The notes below the pieces were generated by a model. The model made no database searches and had not been told where the DNA came from. It was given only the letters and a program-made list of their open reading frames with translations. A stretch of DNA of 64,000 nt, taken from NCBI GenBank assembly GCA_012840085.1, contig DUMB01000004.1:62001-126000 (forward strand), given 5' to 3'. The DNA is from Clostridiaceae bacterium (lineage in GTDB: Bacteria; Bacillota; Clostridia; Acetivibrionales; DUMB01). Positions 9,488 through 63,715 of this stretch are shown one piece after another. Made by a program: the position numbers and the translations under genes. How positions within the stretch are numbered: the stretch's first letter is position 1; each line of letters opens with the position of its first letter.

Positions 9488-9665
9488 ACTCCCCTCCCAT
9501 TAATCTTATGTTAAGGATGTCTCCTTTTTTCTCTTTTGATATACCATATTTATCATTTTCTAGTCTAATAATACCCAAGCAATTTTAAGAAAATATGAAT
9601 AAAGTGTTAATTTTGACACTGTTTATTATCATTTTTGTTAAAGCGAAAAGCATATAAATGGTAAA

Positions 9666-9716
9666 TTAACTTGTTGTTACGGCATTTCAATAGCAGGAGT
9701 TGGCGCAACAAGCTAA
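9666..9716. repeat. Palindromic repeat copy A (AACTTGTTG...CAACAAG)
   Basis: About 50 bp with inverted ends TAACTTGTTG and CAACAAGCTA and the core GGCATTTCAATAGCAGGAG. It is nearly identical to copy B at 12.01 kb and related to copies at 50.12 and 17.23 kb. It ends one base before the stop codon of the histidine kinase gene. Confidence 0.75.
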
Positions 9717-9717
9717 A

Positions 9718-11193
9718 TTAATTCGACGCTCTTTTAAGTGTAAACGTGAATTTGGAACCCTTTCCCAATTCACTTTCCACCCAAATCTTCTGACCGTGCT
9801 CATTGATTATATTCTTTATTATTGCCAGTCCAAGTCCGGTTCCGCTTTTATCTTTGCCTCTTGATTTGTCCGACTTGTAAAATCTTTCCCATATCAGGTC
9901 AATTTCATCACTGCTTATGCCAATTCCATTGTCTTCAACAGAAACTAAAACCTTGTCCTTTTGGTATAAAGTAATTATTTTTATCTTTCCTCCCTGTGGG
10001 GTGAACTTCAGTGCATTATGGATAAGGTTATAAATCACTCTTTCAATTGCATCAGAATCTGCATCCACATACATCTCTTCCGTTTCAAAAATCGCTTCAA
10101 TCTGCATCTCTTTTTTTACAATCATATTCTCAAATTTTATTATGCACCTTCTGATCAGCTCATTTATGTTAAAAATCTTGAAATTAAGGTTTAATTCACC
10201 TGCTTCCATCTTGGCAAGATCCAGAAGATCATTTACAAGCCTGTTTAGCCTGTCGGTTTCATCCCGGACAATCATAAGGTATTCTTTCTGTTTCTCAGGC
10301 GGAATTATGCCGTCAAGTATTCCATCAATAAACCCTCTTATTGAGGTCATCGGGGTCCTCAACTCATGGGAGACGTTTGCAATAAATCCTCTTCTCATAT
10401 TCTCAAGGTTTTCAAGGGCAGCAACCATGTGGTTGAAGCTGTTTGCCAACTGTCCGATTTCATCATTGGAGCGAATATCGAGCTTTTTGCCAAATTCCCC
10501 GCTTGCAACAATTTTTGCCGCAGCATTTATCTTTTTTAACGGCCTGGACAATCTCAGGGAAAAGACATATGCTATAATTACCGATACAGCTGACGCAGCA
10601 ATCACTGAAACAATAAAAAACCGGAAAACGGAAGACCTGGCCCTCATAACTTCAGGGACGGGAGTGTGCAGGAATACTGCCGCTATTATATCCTTTTCAC
10701 CGTTACTGTTTACATACTCAAACGGCACCTGTACAGTAAGCCATGATTCATTTGCTCCGAAAAATCCGTAGAAATTGCCAATTTCTTTTACAGTGCCCTG
10801 GCCGCTCATAACTTTTTTATATTGTCTTTCATCTGGAAGTTTCATATAACCTGTCTCGTCTATATATTGCTTCTTGGTACTGTCAGACATTTCAGGCATG
10901 GACTTATAAATGTGCCCTGTCTTGTCCACTATCCAAATTATTGAATTTGTGTATTCGCTCATGCTTTCAAGAATATGTTCAAAATACAACTGGACGATGA
11001 TATTTTTTCTGTTTTCCAGATAGCTTCGGAAAGAATTGTTTACAATTGATGCAGCCTTTTCAAGGTTTGCCGTCTTTTCCTTTGTAACAAAGTTATCAAG
11101 AAAAATATAAAGCATTCCCCCGGTTATTAAAAAACCTATTAACAGAACAGCTATAAACATTACAACCATTTTGCTGAAAATCGTTCTAAACAT
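9718..11193 (-). CDS. Sensor histidine kinase
   Basis: A 491-residue kinase: a membrane segment at 8-33, an extracytoplasmic sensor region (about 34-165, Cache-like by layout), a second membrane segment (about 185-210), HAMP (about 210-262), HisKA with the phospho-acceptor in NVSHELRTPMTSIRGFIDG (about 272), and HATPase_c with N box NLIHNALKFTPQGG, DNGIGISSDEI and GTGLGLAIIKNII. ResE/PhoR/VicK-like. The start codon overlaps the stop of the response regulator (TAATG), showing translational coupling. The signal is unknown. Confidence 0.95.
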   Translation of the reverse strand: MFRTIFSKMVVMFIAVLLIGFLITGGMLYIFLDNFVTKEKTANLEKAASIVNNSFRSYLENRKNIIVQLYFEHILESMSEYTNSIIWIVDKTGHIYKSMPEMSDSTKKQYIDETGYMKLPDERQYKKVMSGQGTVKEIGNFYGFFGANESWLTVQVPFEYVNSNGEKDIIAAVFLHTPVPEVMRARSSVFRFFIVSVIAASAVSVIIAYVFSLRLSRPLKKINAAAKIVASGEFGKKLDIRSNDEIGQLANSFNHMVAALENLENMRRGFIANVSHELRTPMTSIRGFIDGILDGIIPPEKQKEYLMIVRDETDRLNRLVNDLLDLAKMEAGELNLNFKIFNINELIRRCIIKFENMIVKKEMQIEAIFETEEMYVDADSDAIERVIYNLIHNALKFTPQGGKIKIITLYQKDKVLVSVEDNGIGISSDEIDLIWERFYKSDKSRGKDKSGTGLGLAIIKNIINEHGQKIWVESELGKGSKFTFTLKRASN

Positions 11194-11882: not shown

Positions 11883-12011
11883 ATACCAAATCACCAACCT
11901 TTATTTTATAATATAATATCACTTCCTGCATTAATAAACAACCGTATTTAAATGTGGGCATCCTGTTTCTAAAGCTTTTTCATTGCGATATGTATTAAAA
12001 TAATATATAAT

Positions 12012-12060
12012 TTAACTTGTTGTGCTGGCATTTTGATAGCAGGAATTGACACAACAAAAT
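12012..12060. repeat. Palindromic repeat copy B
   Basis: Ends AACTTGTTGTG (12014-12024) and CACAACAA (12050-12057) form an 8-bp perfect inverted repeat around the core GGCATTTTGATAGCAGGAAT. It lies between the divergent response regulator and ychF genes, unlike copies A and C, which lie just after stop codons. Confidence 0.75.
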
Positions 12061-12137
12061 AGTTTATTTGCTGTAAATTTATGAAAGACTCAGCATAATA
12101 ATATGTTTATGATTTTCAGAAAGGATAGATGATATAT

Positions 12138-13232
12138 ATGCGACTTGGAATAGTAGGACTGCCAAATGTAGGTAAAAGTACATTGTTTAATGCAATCACC
12201 AAGGCAGGTGCCGAATGTGCAAACTACCCGTTTTGCACCATAGAACCTAATGTTGGTATAGTTGCCGTTCCGGACGAAAGGCTTGAGAAACTAGCAGAAA
12301 TGTACAAGCCTGAAAAAGTCACACCGACGACAATAGAATTCGTTGATATCGCCGGGCTTGTTAAAGGTGCGAGCAAAGGTGAAGGTCTGGGAAACAAGTT
12401 TCTTTCACACATACGTGAAGTTGATGCAATAGTTCATGTAGTGAGATGTTTTGAAGACAGCAATATAGTACACGTAGAAGGCTCAATCGGACCCAAGAGG
12501 GATATTGAGACTATTAACCTTGAACTTATATTTGCAGATCTGGAAGTTATGGAAAGGCGAATAGACAGAACCAAAAAAATGCTTAAATCGGGAGATAAGA
12601 AGTTCCAGATAGAATTGGATCTTTATGAAAAGATAAGGGATAGCCTTGAGAAGGGAATTCCCGTCCGTGCCCTGAAGTTTAACGAAGAGGAAAAGAAACT
12701 GGTGGATCAGCTCTTTCTTCTTACTTCCAAGCCTGTTTTGTATGCTGCAAATATTTCTGAAGACGATTTAGGAAACGAGGACAACAATCCTTATATTGCC
12801 GAGCTCAGATCTATTGCGGAAGCTGAAGGTTCAGAAGTAATGGTAATATGCGCTAAAATTGAAGAAGAGATTGCTCAGCTTGATGAAGATGAAAGAAAAG
12901 CATTTCTTGAAGAACTGGGAATGTCTGAGTCAGGCCTTGACAGACTGATAAAAGCAAGTTACAAACTGCTTGGTCTTATAAGCTTTCTGACTGCAGGTCC
13001 GACTGAAGTACGGGCATGGACAATAACTCAGGGTACAAAAGCCCCACAGGCGGCAGGTAAAATACACAGTGATTTCGAAAGAGGCTTTATTAGGGCTGAA
13101 ATAGTTGCATATGATGACCTTATAGCGTGCGGCTCCTATAATGTGGCTAAAGAAAAGGGCCTTGTACGTTCTGAAGGAAAAGATTATGTAATGAAAGACG
13201 GAGATGTAACGCTGTTTAGATTTAATGTATAA
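12138..13232 (+). CDS. ychF: Ribosome-binding ATPase YchF (Obg-like)
   Basis: A 364-residue P-loop NTPase of the YchF/OLA1 family, which binds ATP in preference to GTP and associates with ribosomes. The Walker A is [15 protein letters not shown] at residue 6, followed by the DIAG switch II segment ([16 protein letters not shown]), a helical coiled-coil insertion (about 130-200) and a C-terminal TGS domain (about 275-364). I prefer the ATG giving [10 protein letters not shown]; an ATG three codons earlier (12129) lies only 3 bases from AAGGA. It is the first plus-strand gene and is monocistronic. Confidence 0.97.
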
Positions 13233-13289: not shown

Positions 13290-13462
13290 CAGTATCTCAT
13301 ATATTTAGTATCTCATATATTTATATCAATACCTCATATATATCAGAAATTTATATTTAAATTTATATTTAAATTTATATCTAAAACTTATATCTAAAAT
13401 TTATATCTAAAATTTATATCTAAAATTTATATTAAAATTTATATTCGATAATTTATATCTGA
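13290..13462. repeat. Degenerate tandem repeats after cheW, unit about 13 bp
   Basis: About nine to ten units of AAATTTATATCTA (12-14 bp) run from about 13350 to 13462, preceded by two or three units based on TATCTCATATATTTA. The rightmost unit (13450-13462) contains the cheW stop codon and the last codons of the gene (Phe-Gln-Ile-stop). The rest of the spacer between ychF and cheW shows only a weak hairpin just after ychF (13246-13286) without a U-tract. Confidence 0.85.
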
Positions 13463-15389: not shown

Positions 15390-15687
15390 ATATTAAAGGC
15401 AATGATGAGGAAAAGTAAATTGTTCCGTACTGCAAAGCGATCCGGGGACGGTGAAAGCCCGGAGAGGAAAGAGCAATTGAAGTTCTCCTCTGAGCTGTCT
15501 GCTGAAAACATATGAAAATAATGAGATATTCATATAAGTAGGCAGAACCGGAGCTTCCGCCGTTAAAAGGAAGGATGTATCGGTTGATTTTAAAACCCGT
15601 ACATTGAATGAGTGGGCTTTTGCCAAAACAGGGTGGTACCGCGTGGAACATTGCTCCCCGTCCCAGTAATATGGGACGGGGATTTTT
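15390..15687 (+). ncRNA. T-box riboswitch, specifier UUC (tRNA-Phe)
   Basis: A tRNA-sensing leader that antiterminates transcription when uncharged tRNA is bound. Stem I contains the conserved AGCGA...GGTGAAAGC segment (15436-15458), and the specifier loop GAAG-UUC lies at 15479-15485. The next landmarks are stem II/IIA, the 14-nt T-box AGGGTGGTACCGCG (15630-15643) and an intrinsic terminator. The terminator is an 11-bp stem, TCCCCGTCCCA (15655-15665) with TGGGACGGGGA (15672-15682), and then TTTTT. UUC reads as phenylalanine, which suits aroF. The T-box UGGU pairs with a tRNA ending ACCA, as tRNA-Phe does. The specifier frame is deduced from alignment with the glyQS leader. Confidence 0.93.
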
Positions 15688-15781: not shown

Positions 15782-16795
15782 ATGATTGTTGTAATGAGTC
15801 GCAACGCTACACAGGAACAAATAAAAAATGTAGAGAATAAGCTTTTGAGTCTGGGGTTTAACACACACCCCATATACGGTGAAGTAAAAACAGTAATCGG
15901 TGCAATAGGGGACAAGAGATTTCTCAATACTCATGAAATTACTTCCATGCCCGGGGTTGAATGCCTGGTTCCCATAATGAAACCTTACAAGCTTGCCAGC
16001 CGCGAATTGCAACAGAGTAACTCCATTATTGATGTGGACGGTGTAAAAATCGGTGACAGCAATATTGTAATTATGGCAGGGCCATGTGCCATAGAATCCG
16101 CTGAAACTTTTCTGGAAACTGCAATAAAAGTTAAGGAAGCAGGAGCAAAAATTCTCCGCGGCGGAGCATTCAAGCCACGAACTTCCCCCTATTCTTTCCA
16201 GGGGCTTGAAGAAGACGGACTGAAAATACTTGCAGAAGCCCGTGAAGCAACAGGACTAAAAATTGTAACTGAAGTTGTGGACACCCGGGATGTCGAACTT
16301 GTTAATGCTTATGCTGATATACTGCAAATAGGTGCCAGAAATATGCAAAACTTCAGACTTCTTCGCGAAGCAGGGATGACTTCAAAGCCGGTACTTCTCA
16401 AAAGAGGTCTTTCCGCTACGATAGAGGAATGGCTGATGGCAGCAGAGTATATACTTGCTGCAGGCAATCCAAACGTTATACTTTGTGAACGTGGGATCAG
16501 AACATATGAGACTGCAACCAGAAATACCATTGATATGAGTGCCATACCTGTGATAAAAGAGCTTTCCCACCTTCCTATAGTAGTTGATCCCAGCCATGCC
16601 GCAGGGATGTGGAAGTATGTAGGAGCTCTTTCAAAAGGTGCCGTTGCTACCGGTGCTGACGGGCTTATTATTGAAGTGCACTCAAATCCTGCCTCCGCTC
16701 TCAGTGACGGTCCACAGTCCCTGCGTCCTGAAAAGTTTGCCCAGCTCATGAAGGAGCTTCAGGCAGTGGCTGCCGCTGTAGGCAGAAGCATATAA
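15782..16795 (+). CDS. aroF: 3-Deoxy-7-phosphoheptulonate synthase with N-terminal regulatory domain
   Basis: First enzyme of the shikimate pathway: phosphoenolpyruvate plus erythrose 4-phosphate gives DAHP. Residues 1-70 are a ferredoxin-like regulatory domain as in Thermotoga maritima DAHP synthase, where it mediates feedback inhibition by Tyr and Phe. The barrel (about 80-337) shows [48 protein letters not shown] and [17 protein letters not shown]. The ATG at 15782 follows AGGAGGGG by 7 bases. The gene is monocistronic and controlled by the Phe T-box upstream, so supply is tied to tRNA-Phe charging and probably to allosteric inhibition. Confidence 0.97.
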
Positions 16796-16900
16796 GAGTA
16801 TTTAGGAGAAATAATCAAGAGATATATTTAAGAAAAATATTTAAGAGAAATATTTAAGAAAAGTATTTAAAAGAAGTATTTAAGAGAAGTATTTATACAG
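16784..16900 (+). repeat. Tandem repeats after aroF, unit 13 bp
   Basis: About eight to nine units of GTATTTAAGAGAA (13 bp, 1-3 changes each). The first unit is AGAAGCATATAAG at 16784-16796, which contains the aroF stop codon TAA at 16793-16795. Confidence 0.85.
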
Positions 16901-17038
16901 TATAAAAAAGCATTAAAGATGTATTTAAGATAAGCAAAATAAAATGTAAACAATATTTGAGTACTATGTACAAACGCCTTTAAGTCTGGTAGATAAATGG
17001 TTTTACAGGTGCAATATGGAAGTCAATAAAAACAATAT

Positions 17039-17227: not shown

Positions 17228-17286
17228 CAACTTGTTTATTGTGTGATGTGATGAAATAGCATGACTCCTGCTGTAAATATACAAGT
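17228..17286 (-). repeat. Palindromic repeat copy D (degenerate)
   Basis: Read on the minus strand it starts ACTTGTATATTTACAGCAGGAG and, after a short spacer, ends CACAATAAACAAGTT. It shares the ACAGCAGGAG core and the ACTTG/CAAGT ends with the copy at 50.12 kb but has diverged. An extra ACTTGTTGTG occurs at 17184-17193. Confidence 0.5.
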
Positions 17287-44232: not shown

Positions 44233-47200
44233 CTATCTTTCGACTTTTTCCATTATATAGGACTCAACTATGTCTCCAACTTTAATATCATTGAATTTTT
44301 CTATTAAGATTCCACATTCAAATCCCTGCAATACTTCTCTTACATCATCTTTAAATCTCTTAAGCGAAGCAAGTTTGCCATCATGCACTATTATACCGTC
44401 TCTTACTACTCTTATATCAGAGCTCCTCGTTATCTTGCCGTCTGTTACATAACATCCACCTATGGTGCCTACACCTGATGCTTTAAATATCTGCCTTATT
44501 TCAGCATGACCTAATACTTTTTCCTTAAACTCAGGTTCGAGCATACCCTTCATAGCTGCCTGAACATCCTCTATTGCATCATATATGACTCTGTACAGCC
44601 TGATATCAACACCGGCATCATTGGCAATGTCGGCAACATTTGGTCCCGGTCTGACATTGAACCCTATAATTATGGCATCTGACACTTGTGCCAGGTGTAC
44701 ATCGGATTCAGTTATTGCACCAACGGCGCCATGAATGGTTTTTACCCTTACTTCATCATTGCTTAATTTTTCAAGTGACTGTTTTACAGCTTCAACAGAG
44801 CCCTGAACATCAGCTTTTACTATTATGTTCAGTTCTTTTACCTTACCCTCCTGTATCTGGTTAAACAGGTCATCAAGCGATACCCTTGTTCTGGCCTTGA
44901 GCATCTGCTCCCTCTGCTGAGCCTTTCTCTTTTCTGCAAGATGCTTTGCTACTTTCTCATCTTTTATTGCATAGAATATTTCACCTGCTTCAGGTACTTC
45001 AGGCAAACCGATGATTTCAACAGGTGTAGATGGTCCTGCTTTCTTTATGTTTCTGCCTTTGTCATCAGTCATTGCCCTGATTCTGCCTACAGTTGTTCCT
45101 GTAACTATAGAATCTCCGACTTTAAGCGTGCCCCTCTGTACGAGAAGTGTTGCAACAGGTCCCCTGTTTTTGTCAAGCTTTGCCTCAATAATTGTTCCTT
45201 TAGGCTGCTTGTCAGGGTCTGCTTTAAGTTCAAGCATGTCAGCAGTCAGGAGTATCATTTCCAGGAGCAGGTCAATGTTTTCCTTGTTTTTAGCAGATAC
45301 AGGCACGCAAATTATATCTCCGCCCCATTCTTCAGGAACAAGGCCATATTCTGTCAGCTCCTGTTTTACTCTGTCAGGGTTTGCACCCGGTTTATCTATT
45401 TTATTTATTGCAACAATTATAGCAACATTTGCTGCCTTTGCATGGTTTATAGCTTCGATTGTCTGAGGCATGACTCCGTCATCTGCTGCAACAACAAGCA
45501 CTGCAATATCTGTTACCTGTGCACCTCTTGCTCTCATTGCAGTAAATGCTTCATGGCCAGGTGTATCAAGGAAAGTAACCTTCCTTCCGTTAAGATTGAC
45601 CATATAAGCACCTATATGCTGAGTTATTCCGCCTGCCTCTTTTTCAGTAACATTAGTCTGTCTGATGGCATCAAGCAGCGAAGTCTTACCATGGTCAACA
45701 TGTCCCATGACAACCACTACAGGCGGTCTTGGCTGCATGTTTTCGCCTTCATCAGACTCATCGAACAGAATGTCCTCTTCGCTGACTACTACTTCTTTCT
45801 CAGCCTTCACGCCAAATTCGTCAGCAATTATGGCTGCAGTATCAAAGTCTATCTCCTGGTTGAGAGTAGCCATGACACCCAGGCTCATCAATTTCTTTAT
45901 TACTTCTGTTGCCGTCTTTTTCAAAGCTTCTGCCAGTTCTTTAACAGTAACGCTTTCCGGTATTTTTATTGATGTCAGAACCGGTTTTACAGGCTTATTC
46001 TTTTCAGCCTTATCAGCATTATCAGCTTTTTCATTTTTGGCATTTTTGTTTTCTTTCTTAGGCTTGGCAACCTTCCTTACCCTTTTGCTTCCATCATCAT
46101 AAATATCATCAAGCAAAAAGTCTTCGGAGAGAATCTCAGAAATTCCCTTTTTCTCATGTAATGCTATGTCCTGAGGTCTTAACTTTCTCACTCTTCCCAT
46201 ATTTGAAACCTTAGGAGTTTCCTTTTTCTGCTCTCTCCTGGCTTCTTTGTCAATATCTCTGTTTATTGTATCGCGCTTGCCTTCTTTTTTCGGCGATTCA
46301 CTGATATCAATTTTAGAAACAGGTATCTCCGGCAGCGGCATATCAATTTTCTTGCGCATTGCGCCGGATTTTTTTGGCCCACTTGCCGCATCTGTTTTAT
46401 CAACCGGATGTCCTGTATGCCCGCCGGATTTTTGCTGTTCCTTATGTGTTCTTCCTTTGCCTTGCTGCATATATTGCTCATTTTTTGACACTGCGTCTTT
46501 GTTTTCATGATGTCTTTCAGTTTGAGCCTTATCATGTCTTACGGCTTCCAAACTGTCTTTTTTATCTTCAACTTTTTTGTCTTCCACTTTTATATCTGTT
46601 GCTTTTTTATCTTCTACCTTCTTATCTTCTGCCTTTTTATCCGCTTTTGTATCAGTATCCTTAACAACTGTTTCAACTGCAACATTTTCCTTCAACGCAG
46701 CCTGGTTCCCCTTATCAATAGTCTTTTTATCATCTTTTTTTATTTCAGTTGCTGTTTTTTCAATTTTTTCTGCTGCATTCATCTGAACTTTTACCTCTGA
46801 CTTAGATTCAAGTTTAACCTCTGCTTTAGTTTCCGGTTTATCTTCTGCTTTAACTGTTGGTCTACCCTCTAATTTAACTTCTTCTTTAGCTTCCGTTTTA
46901 ACTTCTTCTTTAGCTGCCGGTTTTACCTCTTCTTTAGCCACCGGCTTAACCTCTTCTTTAGCTGCCGGCTTAACTTCTTCTCTGGCTGCCGGTTTAACCT
47001 CTTCTTTAACTGCAGGCTTGACTTCTTCTTTAGCTGACGGCTTAACATCGGCTTTTTCATTTTTCCTGGCAACTTCCTTGCTCTCGTTTGCTGCGTTGCT
47101 TTCAGCTGCTGCTTTCAATAATTCTCTTTGCAAATCAGCTTTTGTCTGTCTTACAAATCCTGCTCTCAATCCGGAACTGGCCTCTGAAGCTCTTATGACT

Positions 47201-49361: not shown

Positions 49362-49844
49362 TTAAAATCTAAACGTCTTCCTGACCATAGCAACCTTATC
49401 TCTGTCAAATTCCATTATATTGTTATCGTCATCTTTGTGTCCCGAATCTGTTTTAATAACTATTTTATTATCTATTAATCCAACCAGTTCGCCTTCAAAT
49501 TCCTTTTTCCCGTCAATTGCATTAAACGTTTTTACTACTACCGGATGGCCTTTGTACCTTTCGAAATCTTTGTCTTTTTTTAACGGCCTTTCAATTCCCG
49601 GAGAGGAAACCTCAAGGAAGTACCTCTGATCTATTGGATCTGCTTCGTCAAGCACAACGCTCAATTCCTCGCTCACAACCTGGCAGTCATCCAAAGTTAT
49701 TCCGCCCTCTTTATCTATATATACACGCAGGTACCAATTTGCTCCTTCTTTTACAAACTCAACGTCAACCAGCTCAAATGAATACTTCTCAACTATCGGA
49801 AGCGCAAGCTTCGTAACTACATCTTCCACTTTCCTCTTTGCCAT
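49362..49844 (-). CDS. rimP: Ribosome maturation factor RimP
   Basis: 30S assembly factor, 160 residues, first gene of the nusA-infB cluster. Segments LGLPIVE-type start (KLALPIVEKYSFELVDVEFVKEGANWYLRVYIDKEGGITLDDC), ISE-like VVSEELSVVLDEADPI and YFLEVSSPGIERPLKKDKDFERY are characteristic. GGAGG lies ten bases before the ATG. Confidence 0.96.
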   Translation of the reverse strand: MAKRKVEDVVTKLALPIVEKYSFELVDVEFVKEGANWYLRVYIDKEGGITLDDCQVVSEELSVVLDEADPIDQRYFLEVSSPGIERPLKKDKDFERYKGHPVVVKTFNAIDGKKEFEGELVGLIDNKIVIKTDSGHKDDDNNIMEFDRDKVAMVRKTFRF

Positions 49845-50017: not shown

Positions 50018-50123
50018 CACTGGTTAATAACATATTTGCTTTAGTCCAAAAGTATTATATCACTATTGTTTACATTTATCAAGAACTTATTCAAACTTAT
50101 TAACTTAATTAAATAAACTTGTC

Positions 50124-50231
50124 AACTTGTTGTGACAGTATTTCGACAGCAGGAGTTTTAGAGATTAAGAGCTGATAAAAATTGCTCTTAAGCTCTCCGC
50201 AATGTGATCTAATTACATATCACAACAAGTT
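50124..50231. repeat. Palindromic repeat copy C (108 bp)
   Basis: Perfect 12-bp terminal inverted repeats AACTTGTTGTGA (50124-50135) and TCACAACAAGTT (50220-50231). The left part carries the shared core ATTTCGACAGCAGGAGTT; the right part has an extra internal hairpin, TTAAGAGC with GCTCTTAA (50165-50191). It ends 8 bp from the polC stop codon. Confidence 0.8.
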
Positions 50232-50239
50232 AAATCAAT

Positions 50240-53200
50240 TTAAAACAATGTCATCTGGCTGCTTTCCGGCAATCCTTCAAGGCATCCGTGTTTTTGCAGA
50301 ATTTCAATAATAGATTTGCTTGCCTTTCCTCTGACTCTCAAATCATCTATTGATTTAAATTCGCCTTCCTTGCGTGCCTCTGCTATATTTTGTGCAGCAG
50401 CAGTTCCAAGCCCCTGAAGGGAATTTAACGGAGGCCTTATCCCCTGTGGGGTGATCAGGAACCTGGTGGCATCTGAATGGTACAGGTCCACAGGCAAAAA
50501 TTTTATGCCCCTTGCATACATTTCATTAACAACTTCAAGTATGGTGAGCACGTTTTTCTCCTTCTGGGACAAATTATTACCCAGCTGTTCCAGCTCTTTT
50601 ATTTTGTTTCTTACCTTATCCTGCCCTTTTGTCATCAGTTCCGCATCAAAATCATCCGCCCTCACGGTAAAATATGTGGCATAGAATGCCTCAGGATAAT
50701 ATACCTTAAACCAGGCTATTCTGAAAGCCATCATGACGTATGCAGCCGCATGGGCTTTAGGGAACATATATTTAATCTTTTTGCAGGACTGTATATACCA
50801 ATCAGGTACATTGTGTTCTCTCATTACCTGTTCGTATTCCTCTTTAAGCCCCTTACCCTTTCTTACATCCTCCATTATTTTAAACGCTGTCTTCGGAGGC
50901 AGTCCTGCATGCATCAGGTAAATCATAATATCATCCCTGCAGCATATCACTTGCGAAAGTGTTGCAGTCCCGTCTCTCACCAGGTCCTGGGCATTATTTA
51001 ACCATACGTCGGTACCATGAGACAGACCGGAAATCCTTATTAATTCCGAAAAGGTGGTAGGCCTTGTATCCACCAGCATCTGCCTTACAAATTTAGTACC
51101 AAATTCAGGAATTGCAAAGGTTCCTACTTCTGAATCAATATCTTCAGGCTTTATGCCCAGCGGCTCAGTGCTGCTGAATATGCCCATTGTTCTTTTTTCC
51201 CCTATAGGTATGGTCTTGGCATTAACTCCGGTGAGATCTTCGAGCATTCTAATTACCGTCGGGTCGTCGTGTCCAAGTATGTCAAGCTTAAGTATGCTGC
51301 CATGGAGAAAATGATAATCAAAGTGTGTTGTAATAACATTGGAATCAACATCGTCCGCCGGTTTTTGTATGGGCGAAAAATCAAAAATCTCCTTGTTCTG
51401 CGGAACAATCATAATACCACCGGGATGCTGTCCCGTTGTCCTTTTTACACCGGTACATCCTTTAACAAGCCTGTTAATTTCGGCGCTTGTGACAACAATA
51501 CCTCTTTCATCCAGATAATTCTTTACAAATCCATATGCTGTTTTTTCAGCTATTGTGCCAATGGTACCCGCTCTGAATACATGCCCTTCACCGAAAAGTT
51601 CTTCAGTATACTTATGCGCCACCGGCTGGTATTCTCCGGAAAAATTCAAATCTATATCAGGTTCCTTATCGCCGTCAAACCCAAGGAAGGTCTCAAAGGG
51701 TATGTCATAGCCGTCTTTTTTAAGAGGTTTTCCACATTCGGGACAATCTTTATCCGGCAGGTCAAAACCACAGCCAATACTTCCATCGGTTATGAACTCC
51801 GAATACTTGCAGTTTTCACATATGTAATGCGGCTGCAGTGAATTAACCTCCGTAATTCCTACCATATTGGCAACAAATGAAGAACCTACCGAACCCCTTG
51901 ACCCAACCAGATAACCATCACTGTTTGACTTGTGCACAAGTTTCTGTGCAATAAGGTACATTACAGAAAAACCGTTTTTTATTATCGAATTAAGTTCCTT
52001 ATCCAGTCTGTCCTGTACTATCTTTGGAAGAGGCTCTCCGTAAATCTCCTTTGCTTTATTTACCGCAAGCTCTTTGATTTCATCCTCTGCCCCTTCCATA
52101 TGCGGCGGGAAGGTTCCTTCAGGTACAGGGGCAATGTTGTCAACCATATCTGCAATTCTGTTTGTATTTGTAACAACAACTTCATAGGCCTTTTCAGAAC
52201 CAAGATAACTGAATTCCTCCAACATTTCATCAGTAGTCCTGAAATATAATGGAGCCTGGTTATCTGCATCGCTAAAGCCCTGACCCGCCATTAAAATTCT
52301 TCTGAAAACCTCATCCTGAGGATCAATAAAATGTACGTCACAAGTAGCTACCACAGGTTTCCCGAACTTTTCACCCAGCTCTACTATCTTGCGGTTGAGG
52401 TTTTTCAGGTCTTCCATGCTGTTTACCTTTCCGTTGTCTATAAGAAACTTATTGTTGCCCAGGGGCTGTATTTCCAAATAATCGTAGAACCTTACAATCT
52501 TCGCGATTTCCTCATCACTCTTTTTTTCCAGAAGTGCAGAATATAACTCTCCTGCTTCACAGGCACTTCCGAATATAAGCCCTTCTCTGTGAGCCATTAG
52601 CAAACTTTTAGGCATTCGCGGCCTTTTGTGATAATATTTCAAATGGGACTCTGAAACAAGCTTGTACAAATTTTTAAGCCCCACCTGATTTCTTACAAGT
52701 ATCACCCCGTGATACGAATGTGCATTCATATAATTGGTATTGCTTTCAAAAGCATTCTGTATTTCGTCTATTGTGCTCACATTTTTGGATTTAAGTATTT
52801 CCAGGCATTTCAGGAATATGTTTGCAGTTGCTTCAGCATCATCAACCGCTCTATGGTGATTGTCAAGTTTTACTCCAAGGTGCTTTGCCACAACATCAAG
52901 CTTATATTTTTTTAATTCCGGAAACATATTTCTTGAAAGCTGAAGAGTATCAACTATTGGATTGCTTACTTCAAAGCCCAGCTTTCTCGCATTATACTTT
53001 ATAAATCCTGTATCGAACATGGCATTGTGTGCCACAAAAGGAACATCGCCCGTGAACTGCAGAAAATCATTCAAGACTTTCTCAATGGTTGGCGCATCCT
53101 TTACCATTTCATCGTTTATGCCTGTAAGCTTGACAATAAATTCAGGTATAGGAATTTCAGGATTTACAAATGAGCTAAACCTGTCGACAATTTCTCCCTT

Positions 53201-54544
53201 ATGTATCTTAACAGCGCCAATTTCTATAATCCTGTCTTTTACTGCATCAAGGCCGGTAGTTTCAATGTCAAATACAACAAAACTGTTGTCAATGGAATGA
53301 CCGTTGGTAAAATAGACAACAGGTATGTCATCGTCAACAAGATAGCACTCAACGCCATATATTACTTTAATATTGTTTTTCTTTGCAGCTGCATATGCGT
53401 CAGGATAAGCCTGAACAACACCGTGGTCAGTTATAGCTATGGCTTTGTGGCCCCATTTCGCCGCTCTTTCAACCAGCTCTTTGGCAGATGTAATACCATC
53501 CATGGAACTCATCTGGGTGTGCAGATGCAGCTCCACCCTCTTTTCATCTGCTGTGTCCATTTTTTCCTGCTTTTTCAGTTCCACAATATCATAGGCCATG
53601 ATAACAGGTTCTTTTGCAAACCTGTCATACTGGGCTTCACCCCGTACTTTTACATGAAGGCCCTCTTTGAGTCTTTCTTTATAAGTGTCAACGTTATCCT
53701 TCTGGGCGAAGAATTTAACTGATAGAGAACTGGTATAATCCGTAATGTCAAACTTGAACAAAAACCTGCCACCGCGCAATTCTCTGCAGTCAACGGCAAA
53801 TATATCACCACGTACAGCAACTTTACCGGAATCCTGGTTGACTTCACGCATTTTTATTATTTCAGCGTCGAAATTCTTCCCCAAAATAATTCCGCTTTCC
53901 CCGATTTCCTGTACGTTTTTCTTCTTTTTCTCATTTTCAGCCTGCCGCTTATTTTCGTTTATAGCAGCCTCAACGCTGCTCAATGCCCTGGCTTCCTCCA
54001 TCTCTTTAAACTCGAAATACTCATCCTGCATTGCGTCATCCACAAGCGCATTGGTAAAAACAACTTTTACTTTATAGCCAAAGCATTCCTCGATGAAATT
54101 TTCAAGAAGCAAATCACATTTCTGTGACTTCAATATTCTGGAGCCTTTAGTTTTCAATCTTATATCAATTTGGTTGCCTGTCAGATTCCAGCTGCAGCCT
54201 GCCAATATACCTTTGCACAATACAATCCTTGTGCCGGCTATATACATAATGCTGTCCCAATAGCTTCTCAAGCTTTCTTCAAGAGAAAGCCCCACATTAA
54301 AACGGATTTTAATTTTGATTTGTCCAAGCTGCAGTTTCTCTGCCAGGCTTTGTTCGACCTCATCTATCACTTCTGCAGGAATGAGCTTCTCAGAAACAGC
54401 AAAAACTTCTATTTTCCTTGACTTACGATATAAGTTGACACTTTTAACTTTAGTGTCTTTAAAAAACTCAATAATATCATAGTTTTTTGCTCCTTCTGGA
54501 AACAACTCCAGAAAGCCTTTATCCTGAAGTGCCGTACCTTGCAT
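50240..54544 (-). CDS. polC: DNA polymerase III PolC (Gram-positive replicative polymerase)
   Basis: The leading replicative polymerase of Firmicutes, 1434 residues, the family's usual size. Order: N-terminal domain, OB fold (about 230-330), PHP domain (HLHTQMSSMDGITSAKELVERA, about 345) split by a DnaQ-type 3'-5' exonuclease (VFDIETTGLDAVKDRIIEIGAVKI, about 425-600), zinc finger (CENCKYSEF...CGFDLPDKDCPECGKP, about 930) and the catalytic palm (FDGDKEPDIDLNFSGEYQ). It follows ispG by 127 bases. Confidence 0.98.
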   Translation of the reverse strand: MQGTALQDKGFLELFPEGAKNYDIIEFFKDTKVKSVNLYRKSRKIEVFAVSEKLIPAEVIDEVEQSLAEKLQLGQIKIKIRFNVGLSLEESLRSYWDSIMYIAGTRIVLCKGILAGCSWNLTGNQIDIRLKTKGSRILKSQKCDLLLENFIEECFGYKVKVVFTNALVDDAMQDEYFEFKEMEEARALSSVEAAINENKRQAENEKKKKNVQEIGESGIILGKNFDAEIIKMREVNQDSGKVAVRGDIFAVDCRELRGGRFLFKFDITDYTSSLSVKFFAQKDNVDTYKERLKEGLHVKVRGEAQYDRFAKEPVIMAYDIVELKKQEKMDTADEKRVELHLHTQMSSMDGITSAKELVERAAKWGHKAIAITDHGVVQAYPDAYAAAKKNNIKVIYGVECYLVDDDIPVVYFTNGHSIDNSFVVFDIETTGLDAVKDRIIEIGAVKIHKGEIVDRFSSFVNPEIPIPEFIVKLTGINDEMVKDAPTIEKVLNDFLQFTGDVPFVAHNAMFDTGFIKYNARKLGFEVSNPIVDTLQLSRNMFPELKKYKLDVVAKHLGVKLDNHHRAVDDAEATANIFLKCLEILKSKNVSTIDEIQNAFESNTNYMNAHSYHGVILVRNQVGLKNLYKLVSESHLKYYHKRPRMPKSLLMAHREGLIFGSACEAGELYSALLEKKSDEEIAKIVRFYDYLEIQPLGNNKFLIDNGKVNSMEDLKNLNRKIVELGEKFGKPVVATCDVHFIDPQDEVFRRILMAGQGFSDADNQAPLYFRTTDEMLEEFSYLGSEKAYEVVVTNTNRIADMVDNIAPVPEGTFPPHMEGAEDEIKELAVNKAKEIYGEPLPKIVQDRLDKELNSIIKNGFSVMYLIAQKLVHKSNSDGYLVGSRGSVGSSFVANMVGITEVNSLQPHYICENCKYSEFITDGSIGCGFDLPDKDCPECGKPLKKDGYDIPFETFLGFDGDKEPDIDLNFSGEYQPVAHKYTEELFGEGHVFRAGTIGTIAEKTAYGFVKNYLDERGIVVTSAEINRLVKGCTGVKRTTGQHPGGIMIVPQNKEIFDFSPIQKPADDVDSNVITTHFDYHFLHGSILKLDILGHDDPTVIRMLEDLTGVNAKTIPIGEKRTMGIFSSTEPLGIKPEDIDSEVGTFAIPEFGTKFVRQMLVDTRPTTFSELIRISGLSHGTDVWLNNAQDLVRDGTATLSQVICCRDDIMIYLMHAGLPPKTAFKIMEDVRKGKGLKEEYEQVMREHNVPDWYIQSCKKIKYMFPKAHAAAYVMMAFRIAWFKVYYPEAFYATYFTVRADDFDAELMTKGQDKVRNKIKELEQLGNNLSQKEKNVLTILEVVNEMYARGIKFLPVDLYHSDATRFLITPQGIRPPLNSLQGLGTAAAQNIAEARKEGEFKSIDDLRVRGKASKSIIEILQKHGCLEGLPESSQMTLF

Positions 54545-61662: not shown

Positions 61663-61710
61663 TTAATTAAAAAAATTCCTGCTTTATAAAAAAAATCCTG
61701 CTTCACATTA

Positions 61711-63497: not shown

Positions 63498-63715
63498 TAC
63501 TTCTTTTTTGTTGACGACTGTCTTTGCTTGTTTTAAACTATAATTGTTAAACTAATAACTATAGTAAATAATGTAATATTATAACCTAACTGATAAAATA
63601 ATTGCATAATAATACATATATAATACTGCCGGAATACCGGCACAATAGGTTCATTTAATACTATCTGTAGTCATGGTGAAAGAATGCAATAAAAAGAATT
63701 CGTTAAGGTGAGTAA

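Follow-up and report, generated by a model that had tools for sequence, protein, structure and literature searches.

A dispersed family of imperfect palindromes in a Clostridiaceae genome, very probably non-autonomous elements of the IS982 group

On one side of polC in this Clostridiaceae genome lies an imperfect palindrome of about 106 bp, relatives of which recur elsewhere in the window (the whole 64-kb stretch of DNA that was analysed), raising the question of whether such hairpins are small mobile elements or structured RNAs or protein-binding sites under selection. Both possibilities were put forward in an earlier sequence-only reading, and it is the former, a MITE-like non-autonomous element, that is borne out by the inverted repeats, the duplication of a 7-bp target, the scatter of copies between genes and the presence of the same ends on IS982 elements. 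The palindromes are very probably a non-autonomous MITE family of the IS982 group, judged on sequence evidence. The copies in the window and the genes beside them are as follows.

9662-9668: left target-site duplication of copy A, TAAATTA, matching the right one at 7/7 positions
9669-9713 (+): copy A, 45-bp internally deleted MITE (covariance model R1, E=4.6e-06)
9714-9720: right target-site duplication of copy A, TAAATTA, bases 9718-9720 being the sensor kinase stop codon
9718-11193 (-): sensor kinase gene ending in the right duplication of copy A
12008-12014: left target-site duplication of copy B, TAATTTA
12015-12059 (+): copy B, 45-bp internally deleted MITE (covariance model R1, E=1.7e-07)
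12060-12066: right target-site duplication of copy B, TAGTTTA (6/7)
12129-13232 (+): YchF-like GTPase gene, with copy B upstream of it
49362-49844 (-): rimP-like gene downstream of polC, on the other side of copy C
50118-50124: CTTGTCA, at the place of the left target-site duplication of copy C (decayed, 3/7)
50125-50230 (+): copy C, 106-bp common MITE form (covariance model R1, 113.8 bits, E=1e-22)
50231-50237: right target-site duplication of copy C, TAAATCA
50240-54544 (-): polC, on one side of copy C, with its stop codon at 50240-50242

Copies and forms in the window and the genome

When every window position was scored with a covariance model made from 28 copies of the genome, exactly 3 matches were significant, namely the copies at 9668-9714, 12014-12060 and 50124-50231, which do have the proposed ends and core in common. 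The fourth, degenerate copy proposed at 17228-17286 was undetected by the model with all filters off and E <= 10, the stretch having core fragments and a 6-bp end in common with the family and nothing more. At 63625-63651 (-) the window holds AACCTATTGTGCCGGTATTCCGGCAG, which is like a truncated, decayed left end of the MITE with a model E of 3.6, not significant. In a T-rich stretch between genes at 61674-61702 (-) the motif AGCAGGANTT appears twice, 19 bp apart, and is unrelated to the MITE ends. The window also carries tandem repeats at 46766-47079, 16794-16910 and 13336-13445, comprising 24-bp coding-like and 13-bp intergenic repeats, and a T-box leader at 15393-15668 (+; Rfam RF00230, 105.6 bits).

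Searching the genome for more copies (4.09 Mb in 108 contigs, a 97% complete assembly) revealed a dispersed family with 85 covariance-model matches at E <= 0.001. Some of the 85 count a locus more than once, through the opposite strand of a palindromic copy, the mirrored halves of contig C28 or a hit broken into pieces, and roughly 75-80 MITE loci are left without these duplicates. BLAST gave 45 matches with E < 1e-9 in the same genome. Contig C28 (205650 bp) has every hit repeated in mirror image across its middle (for example 2345+/203297- and 41745-/163897+), so the contig is an inverted self-duplication, probably an assembly artefact, in which copy counts are doubled. Among 59 well-defined copies, 48 are intergenic, 10 overlap an ORF edge and 1 lies inside a called ORF, in a genome with a called coding fraction of about 0.81-0.90.

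The commonest form, with about 35 copies of ~106-108 bp, is a single long imperfect hairpin running ACTTGTTGTGCCGGCATTTCGATAGCAGGAGTTCCGAGCTTAAGAGCT...AGCTCTAAAGCTCTCCACAATGCTATCTCATTACCTGGCACAACAAGT, and copy C itself folds as one long hairpin with a z of -5.0 against shuffles. The supposed 60-bp insertion in copy C had the relationship backwards, as ~106-108 bp is the common form and 45-50 bp the deletion derivative. In copies A and B the left arm stops at AGGAGTT with the sequence picking up again at GGCACAACAAGT, and the deletion junction AGGAGTT/GGCACAACAAG of copy A recurs in several further 45-50-bp copies; the short copies are thus evidently internal-deletion derivatives keeping both ends, which, once deleted, may have been amplified in that form. 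Longer forms of 168-191 and 305-312 bp have both arms in common with the 106-bp form. Pairwise identity within classes is about 74% for the 106-bp form, 83% for the 45-bp form and 91-95% for the long classes, such that the long forms look younger. None of the forms (45, 106, 169-191 and 305-312 bp) has transposase coding capacity. The conserved core that drew attention to the family is a remnant of common ancestry and the subterminal part of the left arm.

Ends, target site and the link to IS982

The MITE runs from 5'-ACTTGTTGTG to CACAACAAGT with terminal inverted repeats of ~15 bp (ACTTGTTGTGCYRGC / GCYRGCACAACAAGT), its ends being ACTTGTTGTGC. Aligned flanks read TAANTT/AAC on the left and GTT/AANTTA on the right, with the logo setting the boundary at 5'-AC. 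The target-site duplications that were sought are 7 bp long with the consensus TAANTTA, matching at 7/7 positions in copy A, 6/7 in copy B and 3/7 in copy C, and are decayed yet statistically supported. Identity between left and right heptamers is 0.63, against 0.585 after permuting the pairs (z 3.1, P 0.001), agreement at >=6/7 positions is seen in 18 copies versus 10.6 expected, and in a paired test of lengths 3 to 12 only length 7 gives a duplication signal. Several low-divergence copies, such as L086, L087 and L278, have poor target duplications. A piggyBac-like 4-bp duplication of TTAA was ruled out by the flank logo together with the length test favouring 7 bp.

An exact-pattern scan of genome contigs with the whole left arm gave 0 matches, and it was a shorter end pattern, TTAACNYGTTGTGCYRGC, scanned over named genomes, that gave the lead to IS982. 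Among its matches in Clostridia were ~1.17-kb elements with one ORF each, including intact IS982 elements with nearly MITE-like ends, TTAACTCGTTGTGCTAGC. The transposases of two of these, of 315 aa in Bacillota Ch29 (L208; NF033520, E 1.3e-80) and 314 aa in Clostridiaceae UBA7994 (L194; NF033520, E 1.4e-78), score 264-271 bits against an IS982 model with a curated cutoff of 130, and related IS982 elements are also present in Lutispora thermophila and Desulforamulus putei. A search of the MITE-bearing genome with an intact IS982 transposase protein found two remnants, namely a transposase fragment at G000:C91:33991-34200 (70 aa at 74% identity) with the adjacent end AACTTGTTGTGCTGGC, and an N-terminal fragment at G000:C43:8416-8511 (32 aa at 69%) with the end AACTTGTTATGCTAGT; an intact transposase was not found in the 97% complete assembly. 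The helper was most likely a now-dead IS982-type insertion sequence. With no intact transposase and a pairwise identity of ~74%, the ~106-bp form has probably ceased to move.

Most members of the IS982 family have AC ends, and ISCth1 of Clostridium thermocellum, 1151 bp with a 315-aa product, makes a 7-bp direct repeat (PMC7335449). AC ends and the 7-bp repeat are both present in the MITE. Against the IS982 end consensus AC(N)6T(N)5TT (PMC7335449) the AC and T9 agree in the MITE, while positions 15-16, TT in the consensus (PMC7335449), are CA in the MITE and CT in the related IS. Derivation of the MITE interior from an IS982 element was considered and found no support, as similarity ends after about 13-16 bp; it is thus the ends alone that are shared, and an origin by internal deletion of the IS is unsupported. 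The likeness to IS982 holds on the main features, its weak points being this interior and the mismatch at positions 15-16. In Selenomonadaceae RGIG7910 a 184-bp element (L225) looks like a direct internal deletion of an IS982 element of the same genome (L183/L190), that is, like a MITE being born.

The same 18-bp ends have 29 matches in genome G003 and 16 in G010, with 0 in the reversed control of each, and are absent from the same-family relative G001, the nearest relative compared. The 169-bp copy L264 is 91% identical over 114 bp to L139 of G003, which belongs to another family of the order, a high level for non-coding sequence in separate bacterial families, which hints at likely horizontal transfer between them. 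Foldback elements with these ends and different interiors, 66-264 bp long, are present in further Clostridia. Several MITEs of other Clostridia with the same ends but other interiors (L127, L151, L161, L175, L201 and L218) seem to share a short GAAGAGNCTTAGAGNCTGTT-like motif past the left end.

Insertion at gene ends and the rival explanations

Two copies had been said to end close to a stop codon, and both hold within 8-9 bp: the kinase stop codon at copy A is the last three bases of the target duplication, and the polC stop codon starts 9 bp beyond the end of copy C. Among 54 copies having a gene end on one side, the target site starts <=20 bp from a stop codon in 24, as compared with 10% of 39 TAANTTA sites and 10% of 4256 intergenic positions used as controls, these counts being approximate as ORFs were called by a simple script. 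TAA accounts for 19 of the 24 nearby stops, and in four copies an apparent stop (offset -5) arises where the duplication meets the element. While active, an ISCth1-like IS982 DDE transposase would have bound the MITE ends in trans and placed the elements at TAANTTA sites. Each strand of TAANTTA contains TAA and the site is doubled on insertion, so that an element landing at a gene end would leave or recreate a stop codon, and gene ends would hence tolerate insertion. The clustering is probably due to this stop codon on both strands of the target and its restoration by the duplication, and the preference could reflect purifying selection rather than choice of target.

The clustering at gene ends also bears on the other explanation first proposed, which we consider unlikely: that a structured RNA or a hairpin regulating in cis, such as an operon attenuator or a 3'-end element, was dispersed, is functional now and is kept by selection. 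In keeping with it, the ~106-bp copies fold much better than shuffles (z -5 to -9), many copies lie directly after stop codons and copy C sits between polC and rimP. Over 39 pairs in 28 copies, however, 84.9% of stem cells pair versus 85.2% after shuffling partners among copies, with a covariation score of 0.166 versus 0.165 shuffled; the 39-pair structure was taken from the consensus, RNAalifold on the 28-copy alignment giving just 10 pairs. Orientation relative to the neighbouring gene is unbiased (15:9, P 0.31), with no preference toward the upstream gene, the ~106-bp form has no Rfam family match and folding of the 45-bp deleted copies is at the level of chance (z -1.8 and -1.3). A selected RNA structure or protein-binding site is thus unsupported, and the stems appear to have decayed independently and neutrally from one ancestral palindrome, the lack of covariation and of orientation bias being expected of passive elements. 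The sequence-only reading had held that a stem without covariation between copies would speak against its interpretation; no covariation was found, and this counts against the RNA reading and leaves the MITE reading untouched.

Still less likely is a REP-, BOX- or ERIC-type palindrome or the MITE of another transposase unrelated to IS982, such as IS630/Tc1 with its TA or the single-strand IS200/IS605, for while size and foldback shape are like those of ERIC, RUP and Correia elements, the target duplication is 7 bp at TAANTTA, neither TA nor absent, and the ends are nearly those of IS982 elements with transposases well above the family cutoff. Chance or low-complexity similarity has a negligible claim: the genome is A+T-rich and rich in short palindromes, yet the core AGCAGGANTT has 143 matches genome-wide versus 15 in the reversed control and the left-end pattern TTGTTGTGNNNNCATTTN has 83 versus 5, counts that, with the 18-bp ends found in two other genomes and in none of their controls, refute it. 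That the palindromes are an IS982-group MITE family, new, ordinary in kind and with its helper dead, is well supported, and no description of it was found in the literature searched.

The nested Clostridiales-2 RNA and comparison with known systems

Inside the 305- and 312-bp copies lies a match to the Clostridiales-2 RNA (Rfam RF02937), scoring 69.8 and 59.2 bits with a gathering cutoff of 58.6, at the following positions.

G000:C63:36202-36281: RF02937 in the loop of a long MITE copy (L079/L329)
G000:C52:2367-2445: RF02937 in the loop of a long MITE copy (L276)

The 169-bp copies and L139 of G003 are without RF02937 at the same place (...CAATTCGCTTCACTCAGGTGATTTGCC...), making an empty/filled pair, and RF02937 is not in the 45- and 106-bp forms within the window. 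It is repeated >10 times in several other clostridial genomes, so that this entry, listed as an sRNA gene, may belong to a mobile element. IS982-type ends surround it at 0 of the 29 foreign loci checked, ruling out that all Clostridiales-2 RNAs are MITE interiors, and RF02937 would appear to be a mobile element in its own right, which inserted into the loop of the MITE. The chances are even for the fuller reading, in which this catalogued sRNA gene is a dispersed mobile element in the loop of an IS982 MITE, the two having spread and eroded jointly, with the palindromic TAANTTA making gene ends safe. With the empty/filled pair it can be tested whether the Clostridiales-2 RNA is an sRNA gene or part of a mobile element. 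Of the known systems compared here, this RNA lies within the ~305-bp MITE loop and is yet an independent element.

ERIC, RUP, Correia/NEMIS and BOX are imperfect palindromes of about 100 bp between genes, with internally deleted versions. They resemble the present MITE in palindromic shape, size, dispersal and deleted versions, and differ from it in belonging to other bacteria and transposases and in having other target duplications (TA in RUP/Correia) or none known. ISCth1 is closer, with a 315-aa transposase and a length of 1151 bp as against about 1.17 kb for the intact IS found here, a 7-bp direct repeat as in the MITE and AC ends as listed for the IS982 family; unlike the MITE it is autonomous, the comparison of ends being with the family listing.

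The one clear precedent for IS982-derived MITEs within the literature searched is MITECca01 of Cardinium cOegibbosus, derived from IS982/ISCca4 (PMC9769881), which is likewise non-autonomous, short, of high copy number and mostly intergenic, with ends resembling those of an IS982 element of the same genome (PMC9769881). MITECca01 is about 240 bp, keeps some parental IS sequence and has an intact parental IS (PMC9769881), whereas the present MITE has 45-, 106-, 169- and 305-bp forms, an interior unrelated to the IS and a dead parental IS, and is common to two bacterial families, the two being likened by description. For annotation, such hairpins should not be taken for regulatory RNAs. To this precedent the present family adds the diversification of such elements, from 169 to 305, 106 and 45 bp, and an IS982-type MITE with a target that contains a stop codon on either strand and, in keeping with this, with insertions concentrated at the ends of genes.
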